From an uncultured Desulfobacteraceae bacterium (lineage in GTDB: Bacteria > Desulfobacterota > Desulfobacteria > Desulfobacterales > UBA5852): a stretch of 64,000 nt of DNA. The stretch is taken from contig CAJXSL010000002.1 in NCBI GenBank assembly GCA_913060875.1, forward strand, positions 310,001-374,000, given 5' to 3'. Under the pieces are notes generated by a model. The model was not told the origin of the DNA, searched no databases, and saw only the letters and a list, made by a program, of their open reading frames with translations. A program made the position numbers and the translations under genes. Positions 1 to 1,681 of this stretch are shown in pieces. Position 1 is the first letter of the stretch. Each line of letters starts with the position of its first letter.

Positions 1-237
1 GGCCGAAGCCGAAGGGGCCGACACACCCAAGAGAGCCGCCAGTTCCGAAATGGACACCTGACCGCGTTTTTGAATCAGCATAAGGGCATGCATCTGATTA
101 ACCGACAACTCTCCGCAGATGCTGTTTTTCCCTTCAGCGGCCAGTACCTGAGCCACATTACGGTCGACAAAATCACGGATCGACCGTCCGGTAGTAAATA
201 TATAGCGGGCCTGTTCCGCCAGGGTGTATTGTACCAT
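1..237 (-). CDS. MarR-family transcriptional regulator, N-terminal part (runs off left edge)
   Basis: The minus strand is open from an ATG at 235-237 to the window edge, giving 79 residues. An AGGA ribosome-binding motif lies about ten bases upstream. The protein has an alpha-helical start followed by a helix-turn-helix-like stretch around residues 55-79 (QKRGQVSISELAALLGVSAPS). This is the usual MarR arrangement of dimerisation helix followed by winged helix. MarR proteins are usually small DNA-binding repressors that respond to ligands or oxidants. The recognition helix and wing lie outside the window, so the ligand and subfamily cannot be judged. It is transcribed in the same direction as aroF, which lies upstream, but an AT-rich 88-base gap with inverted repeats separates them, so it probably has its own control. 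Confidence 0.8.
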   Translation of the reverse strand, partial: MVQYTLAEQARYIFTTGRSIRDFVDRNVAQVLAAEGKNSICGELSVNQMHALMLIQKRGQVSISELAALLGVSAPSASA

Positions 238-261
238 CAAAGATAGTCCTGTTAAATGTTT

Positions 262-325: not shown

Positions 326-1336
326 TCAACTGTTTTTGAAAATCGCAAATATTTGGTCAACCTGCCGGATCAGGCTGGCAAACTGCTCCGGCAAAAGCGA
401 TTGGGCGCCGTCGCTCAGGGCTTGATCCGGCTGGTGGTGAACCTCGACCATCAAGCCATCGGCGCCCACTGCAGCGGCGGCCCGCGCCAGCGGGATGACC
501 TGATCCCGTCGCCCGGCCGCATGACTGGGATCGATGATGATCGGTAAATGGCTTTCCCGACGGACATAGGGGACCGCCGACAAATCAAGGGTGTTGCGAC
601 TGTGATGGACAAACGTCCTGACCCCCCGTTCACAAAGAATCACATCGGTATTGCCCCCTTCCATGATGTACTCGGCCGCCATAAGCCACTCGTCGATGGT
701 GGCGGCCAACCCACGTTTGAGCAATACCGGTCGTTTGGAACGCCCCGCTTGGCGCAGGAGGCTGAAATTCTGCATGTTGCGCGTCCCGATCTGGATCACG
801 TCCGCATACGCTTCCACCTGGTCGAAGGTTTCCGTATCCATGACTTCAGTGACCACCGGCATGCCGGTCTCCTGGCGCACTTTGGCCAATATCTTCAGCC
901 CTTCCAGGCCCAGCCCCTGAAAAGAGTACGGCGATGTCCGGGGCTTGAAAGCCCCTCCCCGGAAAAGATGGGCACCGGCTGACTTCACGTGACGGGCGAT
1001 GATCAGGGCCTGTTCTTCACTCTCGATGGCGCAGGGTCCGGCAATGACCACCGGATGACCGTTGCCGATGGCGATGCCGCCGACATGCACAATGGTGTCT
1101 TCCGGCCGTGTTTCCCGGCTGACGAGCTTGTAGGGCCGGGTAACCGGTATGACATCCTTCACGCCCGCCAAACCGACAAAGAGCGCGGCATCGACAGCGC
1201 CTTTATTGCGCAGGACACCAATAGACATCCTTTCCCCGCCCGGAATGGGCCGCGCTTCGTATCCGCGGGCCTTCACGGCCGCTTCGACGGCTTTGATCTG
1301 GTCGGGGGTTGCTTGGGCTTCCATCACAATCAACAT
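326..1336 (-). CDS. aroF: 3-deoxy-7-phosphoheptulonate (DAHP) synthase, type I-beta
   Basis: The enzyme condenses phosphoenolpyruvate and erythrose 4-phosphate to DAHP, the first step of the shikimate pathway in the cytoplasm. The 336-residue protein has a ferredoxin-like N-terminal domain (residues 1 to about 70) ahead of the barrel. This is the layout of AroF/Thermotoga-type synthases, where that domain takes part in feedback control. Family motifs are visible: GPCAIES at 100-106, KPRTSP at 131-136 and DPSH at 269-272. The start is the ATG at 1334-1336 with AAGGAG eight bases upstream; a TTG nine codons earlier has no such site. The gene lies behind a 25-residue leader peptide with four Trp codons and a terminator hairpin, so its expression is probably set by tryptophan supply. 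Confidence 0.95.
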   Translation of the reverse strand: MLIVMEAQATPDQIKAVEAAVKARGYEARPIPGGERMSIGVLRNKGAVDAALFVGLAGVKDVIPVTRPYKLVSRETRPEDTIVHVGGIAIGNGHPVVIAGPCAIESEEQALIIARHVKSAGAHLFRGGAFKPRTSPYSFQGLGLEGLKILAKVRQETGMPVVTEVMDTETFDQVEAYADVIQIGTRNMQNFSLLRQAGRSKRPVLLKRGLAATIDEWLMAAEYIMEGGNTDVILCERGVRTFVHHSRNTLDLSAVPYVRRESHLPIIIDPSHAAGRRDQVIPLARAAAAVGADGLMVEVHHQPDQALSDGAQSLLPEQFASLIRQVDQIFAIFKNS

Positions 1337-1437: not shown

Positions 1438-1469
1438 AAAAAAAGGGCGGTGGCCTGTCGCCACCGCCC
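1438..1469 (-). terminator. Rho-independent terminator in the aroF leader (attenuator)
   Basis: On the minus strand a perfect 10-bp GC-rich stem (1460-1469 with 1445-1454, loop 1455-1459) is followed by seven T residues (1438-1444). It lies between the Trp-codon leader peptide and aroF, where an attenuator terminator is expected. The 5' arm can alternatively pair with the GCCACCCC stretch inside the upstream hairpin (six base pairs, then a bulge), a possible antiterminator. Confidence 0.85.
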
Positions 1470-1480
1470 CTTTAAAACGA

Positions 1481-1513
1481 AAAGACCGTGGCATTGGGGT
1501 GGCCACGGTCTTT
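1481..1513 (-). promoter_or_regulatory. Upstream hairpin of the aroF attenuator
   Basis: A perfect 12-bp stem pairs 1481-1492 with 1502-1513 around a nine-base loop (1493-1501). It lies 30 bases after the leader-peptide stop codon and directly before the terminator. On the minus strand it is also followed by four T residues, so it could act as a pause or first terminator hairpin. Its role is inferred from order and spacing. Confidence 0.65.
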
Positions 1514-1543
1514 TTTATTGCCTATTATCGCTGGTTCAGGCGG

Positions 1544-1621
1544 TCAATTCCGGCAGGCGCACCCCTCTCGTTTGAATTGCCACCACCACCAGCAAAATTG
1601 GATTTGATTTTTCACGGACAT
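1544..1621 (-). CDS. Trp leader peptide (four consecutive Trp codons) upstream of aroF
   Basis: A 25-codon reading frame starts at the ATG at 1619-1621 with GAGGA about nine bases upstream and stops with TGA at 1544-1546. The peptide is MSVKNQIQFC-WWWW-QFKREGCACRN. Codons 11-14 (1580-1591) are four TGG codons in a row, extremely unlikely by chance and the hallmark of ribosome-mediated tryptophan attenuation. When charged tRNA-Trp is scarce the ribosome should stall here and change folding of the two downstream hairpins, letting transcription reach aroF. A sigma-70 promoter lies immediately upstream. The leader is too short for standard gene calling. Confidence 0.88.
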   Translation of the reverse strand: MSVKNQIQFCWWWWQFKREGCACRN

Positions 1622-1651
1622 TTTATGTAATCCTCAACCGATGTTTCTATG

Positions 1652-1681
1652 AGTCTACCGGAAGCCTTCCGCGCTTGTCAA
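1652..1681 (-). promoter_or_regulatory. Sigma-70 promoter of the aroF leader transcript
   Basis: On the minus strand TTGACA (1676-1681) is followed, after 18 bases, by TAGACT (1652-1657). Transcription would start about 20 bases before the leader peptide's ribosome-binding site. Confidence 0.65.

Follow-up and report, generated by a model that had tools for sequence, protein, structure and literature searches.

In the his attenuator of Salmonella and E. coli, six RNA segments form two alternating sets of pairs and the last hairpin is the sole terminator, and the DAHP synthase isozymes of E. coli are controlled via TrpR and TyrR. An additional hairpin between the his pause hairpin and terminator reduces basal read-through, and the relative tightness of the his and trp attenuators has been discussed (PMC1183508). 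Trp attenuators are present in actinobacterial trp operons (PMC1262725), and in Corynebacterium glutamicum a leader-peptide attenuator with Phe-Tyr-Phe acts on a DAHP synthase operon, aroR-aroF (PMC11802643, PMC4046766). An attenuator has also been predicted upstream of the Desulfovibrio vulgaris aromatic supraoperon (PMC1173090, Table 7), and a trans-acting role of a leader peptide or leader sRNA has been described for peTrpL of Sinorhizobium (PMC7298713).

Here we analyse the leader of aroF in a 64-kb stretch of DNA (hereafter, the window) from an uncultured Desulfobacteraceae bacterium. Its sequence indicates, with a probability of about 0.82, that aroF expression is set by tRNA-Trp charging, by way of a ribosome-mediated transcription attenuator with a relay of two terminators. 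The kind of attenuator is classical and the target gene unusual, and two linked terminators are seemingly switched off at once. The locus resembles E. coli trpL (RF00513) in its Trp codons within a short ORF, its upstream promoter-like site, its mutually exclusive 2:3 and 3:4 pairings and its folding response to a stalled ribosome; unlike E. coli trp, however, it targets a DAHP synthase, places segment 2 inside the leader ORF, couples two terminators, has no RF00513 match and lies in a genome with no Trp-repressor family protein. The six-segment logic is that of his, except that the first hairpin, which in most loci has a U-tract of its own, would here act as a terminator too. C. glutamicum aroR reads Phe through an unrelated leader, whereas the leader in the window reads Trp. 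The D. vulgaris case is alike in that attenuation was predicted, in another sulfate reducer, for an early aromatic gene adjoining the trp operon, but that supraoperon begins with aroA'/aroB' and not with this DAHP synthase, and neither leader peptide nor mechanism was given. We did not find a Trp leader on a DAHP synthase, or a coupled-terminator relay, in the open-access literature, and hence make no claim of priority.

Layout and conservation of the aroF leader

An earlier note on this DNA had described a sigma-70 promoter, a 25-codon leader with four consecutive TGG codons, and two hairpins with a seven-T tail upstream of aroF, all of which we located on the minus strand (Table 1). It had also named aroF a DAHP synthase, in agreement with the Pfam matches of the product (PF00793, DAHP_synth_1, 286 bits; PF18152, 40 bits), which include a ferredoxin-like regulatory domain.

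Table 1. Features of the aroF leader region in the window
Feature	Position	Strand	Remarks
Sigma-70-like promoter, TTGACA-18-TAGACT	1652..1681	-	10/12 consensus matches
Leader ORF, MSVKNQIQFCWWWWQFKREGCACRN	1544..1621	-	25 codons; GAGGA ~10 nt upstream of ATG
Regulatory codons TGG TGG TGG TGG, putative ribosome stall site	1580..1591	-	
Hairpin 1593-1574 x 1550-1530	1530..1593	-	MFE structure; Trp codons x leader-stop region and beyond
Segment 2, AGGGGUGCGCCUGCCGGA, predicted antiterminator strand inside leader ORF	1549..1566	-	encodes conserved GCA.R
Segment 3, GACCGUGGCCACCCCA, H1 5' arm + loop	1495..1510	-	covaries with segment 2 (44 loci)
H1 (3:4), predicted first terminator hairpin	1480..1514	-	-20.0 kcal/mol; kept across family; U-tract here partly eroded (TCTTTTCGTTTT)
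Segment 4, AUGCCACGGUCUUUU, H1 3' arm	1480..1494	-	pairs with segment 5
Segment 5, AAAGGGGCGGUGGCG, H2 5' arm	1459..1473	-	pairs with segment 4
H2 (5:6), predicted second terminator hairpin with T7	1438..1473	-	hairpin 1473-1441, -27.4 kcal/mol; T7 at 1444-1438
aroF, DAHP synthase I-beta type, N-terminal ferredoxin-like regulatory domain	329..1336	-	336 aa; start ATG 1336; AAGGAG at 1350-1345

The four TGG codons are the sole TGGTGGTGGTGG within the 64-kb window (0 in 100 shuffles), and an extended Trp-leader pattern has one exact match genome-wide, the aroF leader of the window. The RNA from 1636 to 1440 has a folding energy of -86.5, z -6.9 relative to its shuffles (-57.7 +- 4.2). On the 3' side of aroF, genes for a MarR-family-like regulator and a TolC-like outer membrane efflux protein were recognised by eye on the same strand (window 1-240 and locus L101, 6192-8240), with a promoter-like site at 255-228.

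A scan of 80 loci of aroF relatives, 77 of them with usable upstream DNA, bore out the Trp codon runs and hairpins that the earlier note had proposed to look for in orthologues. We found a leader ORF with a Trp run upstream of 47 of the 77, its start being a guess in several; the run lies ~145-270 nt before aroF, and the peptide usually reads W.WWW and then GCA.R. Cultured relatives that share the leader are Desulfosarcina alkanivorans (L029) and Desulfacinum infernum (L052). By this method about 30 of the 77 show no Trp leader, and none was seen at the 10 Acidobacteria/Chloroflexi loci. In 44 of 48 loci, the window counted, a terminator hairpin follows the leader stop by no more than 45 nt. 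Upstream of the leader, the best promoter-like sites of the 48 leader-bearing aroF genes score higher than those of shuffled sequences (9.25 versus 8.03, p 1.8e-8 by Wilcoxon test), and the majority carry a perfect TTGACA. In orthologues H1 is commonly GGACCGUGGGC...GCCCACGGUCC followed by a U-tract and is homologous to the first hairpin of the window, which the earlier note had listed as a first hairpin and which we now regard as more than a pause hairpin, namely as a conserved terminator. The second hairpin, H2, lies shortly 3' of H1 in 20 of the 48 leader loci, the window among them; its reading as a terminator stands, although it is not the sole one and appears coupled to H1.

Antiterminator pairing and the order of folding

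The predicted antiterminator, which had earlier been sketched by eye, is the pairing of segment 2, the last part of the leader ORF, with segment 3, which comprises the 5' arm of H1 together with its loop. The stretches GGGGUG, GCC and CGG of the window face CACCCC, GGC and CCG (-22.3 kcal/mol, z -3.9 versus shuffles). When we compared each locus's own pair of segments with pairs swapped across loci, ignoring relatedness (no tree), the own 2:3 duplexes averaged -20.5 kcal/mol and the swapped ones -17.4 +- 0.4 kcal/mol (p 2e-4, n=44 aroF loci), and p stayed at 2e-4 after removal of near-duplicates. The same p of 2e-4 was obtained for the loop part alone, which lies mostly outside H1's own pairing. 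Taken singly, 26 of the 44 loci beat dinucleotide shuffles at p<0.05 and 18 fall short.

We folded the RNA with transcription halted before segment 4 and, separately, at full-length equilibrium, on the assumption that the ribosome covers -15 to +12 relative to the codon. For the RNA of the window halted before segment 4, 0.2 pairs of 2:3 were expected when no ribosome was present, 12.5 when one was stalled at Trp and 0.2 when it stood at the stop codon; E. coli trpL, treated identically as a control, gave 0.0, 4.6-4.8 and 0.0, and across the 44 loci 2:3 pairing was greater with the Trp-stalled ribosome than with the ribosome at the stop (p 3.7e-9). At equilibrium the full-length RNA of the window still favoured the terminators when a ribosome was stalled on it, so that these states were not told apart, and the full-length E. 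coli control likewise favoured its terminator. The mechanism would therefore depend on the order of folding.

These results show an ORF with regulatory codons, an intrinsic terminator, an antiterminator that uses the terminator's 5' arm and, in silico, needs a Trp-stalled ribosome, and a gene that serves the amino acid being read: a DAHP synthase, with aroF-trpE operons among relatives and the same kind of leader before the genome's own trpEGD. Computation here shows the sequence features, that they are conserved, and that both 2:3 and 4:5 covary; that the promoter is used, the ribosome stalls, transcription terminates and the relay operates in vivo is inferred. With ample Trp, the leader ribosome would reach the stop codon and cover segment 2, whereupon H1 and then H2 would fold and transcription would end. 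When charged tRNA-Trp is short, the ribosome would stall at WWWW and, with segment 4 still to be transcribed, segment 2 would pair with segment 3; the freed segment 4 would then pair with segment 5 ahead of the synthesis of segment 6, disarming the second terminator too. In untranslated RNA the hairpin 1593-1530, as folded from this single sequence, would occupy segment 2 and lead to termination by default.

Proposed coupling of the two terminators

The second terminator appears tied to the first, because the 3' arm of H1 (segment 4) pairs with the 5' arm of H2 (segment 5). In the window GCCAC.GUCUUUU faces AAAGGGGC.GUGGC (-17.7 kcal/mol, p 0.02 versus shuffles), and elsewhere the pairing is GUCACGGUC x GGCUGUGAC (L016) or CCCACGGUCC x GGGCUGUGGG (L015). 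Own 4:5 duplexes average -19.2 kcal/mol against -16.8 +- 0.5 kcal/mol for swapped ones, relatedness again being ignored (p 2e-4, n=20), and once 2:3 was set, 4:5 formed before segment 6 in 20 of 20 loci. H2 as a plain copy of H1 is disfavoured: a copy would make 3:6 equal to 4:5, and 4:5 is the stronger in all 20 tandem aroF loci. The alternating sets 2:3/4:5 and 3:4/5:6, seen by complementarity and covariation, point to a two-terminator relay resembling the his logic, except that the last hairpin does not terminate alone, since H1 carries a U-tract.

The main competitor to this relay holds that H1 alone carries out Trp attenuation, H2 being an independent back-up that always lowers read-through. 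In its favour, H2 is far stronger than 4:5 (-27.4 versus -17.7), for which reason the second terminator may be disarmed in part only, and about half of the aroF leader loci lack H2 and have H1 as the only terminator found. An independent H2 nevertheless leaves unexplained why 4:5 is complementary in 20 of 20 tandem aroF loci, beats swaps, exceeds 3:6 throughout and recurs in the trpE leaders and three Phe leaders described below, and we consider it unlikely.

Related leaders, operon links and the Trp repressor family

In a comparison set of 75 upstream regions of trpE from the same order, Trp leaders have the same layout, with swap-test p values of 2e-4 for 2:3 (n=24), 4e-4 for 4:5 (n=20) and 0.30 for 3:6. 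The genome's own trpE-trpG-trpD (L091, G000:C20:58879-60252) is preceded by a WWWW leader, MVQKILGKMMRFQGHLELKQWWWWHLT, with tandem terminator hairpins, and here segment 2 lies past the leader stop codon. Because segment 2 sits 3' of the stop in this leader, a peptide function of GCA.R is disfavoured. This bears on the idea that the main product is a trans-acting, peTrpL-like leader peptide or leader sRNA: Trp excess would indeed be expected to yield an ORF-bearing leader RNA that terminates at ~200 nt, yet conservation of the peptide tail tracks the 2:3 RNA pairing, which together with the own trpE leader makes such a main function very improbable. The conserved tails, GCA.R in Trp and SVHP in Phe leaders, would then be explained as an RNA strand.

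That the leader ORF is a chance occurrence and the two hairpins merely insulate aroF from upstream transcription is scarcely credible: tandem terminators are common between genes and no result here favours insulation, but dozens of genera keep a Trp run in a comparable position ahead of H1, and before trpE too, a promoter-like site lies upstream of the leader, and 2:3 covaries. Control by a ligand or protein (T-box, TRAP-like or riboswitch) instead of the ribosome merits next to no weight, having the presence of alternative hairpins and nothing further to recommend it, as neither the window nor any of eight related loci matched an Rfam family (RF00513, T-box and riboswitches included) at gathering score, and loose E-values gave only chance-like matches near the element, RF00513 not among them.

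The attenuation of aroF by Trp claimed in the earlier note is supported, but entry into the shikimate pathway is not gated by aroF alone, because a second DAHP synthase (L002, G000:C6:83668-84459), without the ferredoxin-like domain and followed by pheA, has a Phe leader, MRQHNNITGEFFGRFFFGFRSVHPAS, before it. This DAHPS-pheA leader is the closer parallel to C. glutamicum aroR-aroF. Its FFFGFRSVHP is kept in two relatives (L009, L010); the SVHP codons form segment 2 (GUUCAUCCGG x CCGGGUGGAC), and tandem terminators with a 4:5 pairing follow. All three Phe leaders keep 4:5 complementarity, L010 differing in sequence and yet remaining complementary.

We lean slightly towards regarding many of the Desulfobacterota aroF, trpE and DAHPS-pheA attenuators as one class, in which one stalled ribosome disarms two serial terminators and the isozymes are wired by leaders of their own. 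If so, basal levels would be low with no repressor involved, and the DAHP synthase isozymes would each answer their own end product, Trp or Phe. This suggests that, where the genome encodes no Trp-repressor family protein, leader peptides by themselves put the isozymes under end-product control, with the two-terminator relay as a possible answer to the problem of tight attenuation without a repressor.

In a genome-wide leader-pattern search, aroF and trpE made up two of the four matches, and since a reversed-pattern control matched as often, the search alone does not define a regulon. Gene order links the two genes. In six relatives (L023, L024, L043, L052, L055, L063) aroF heads aroF-trpE, with trpG and trpD also present where the contig extends far enough, and in L013 and L034, where we looked for an aroF leader and found none, trp-gene motifs (trpA; trpC and trpF) lie just upstream of aroF. 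The likeliest history would be that an ancestral aroF-led trp operon was split and each part retained a leader.

The Trp repressor family, PF01371, has no match in this genome, whereas 85 of the 298 genomes from the order carry one. We considered the second terminator as a substitute for the missing repressor, which the trpE set fits and the aroF set does not. Among trpE leaders a second terminator is present in 36 of 40 genomes without PF01371 and 6 of 23 with it (p 3e-7), the 36 including L121 and L123 recounted as tandem (a scan of the last 420 nt gave 34/40 versus 6/23, p 5e-6); counted by family, the figures are 35 of 39 and 1 of 8 (p 4e-5). Among the 44 aroF genomes only three have PF01371, all of the tandem type (H1 of L039 was not resolved by the script), and many single-terminator aroF loci also lack PF01371. 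The profile may cover TrpR-like proteins of other function, as it also matches in B. subtilis, and we take the association as a lead only. The trpE leaders of L158, L162 and L169, from a TrpR-bearing family, are of a different type, with spaced Trp codons (LWRWRSWPIWQW, LWPWPIW).
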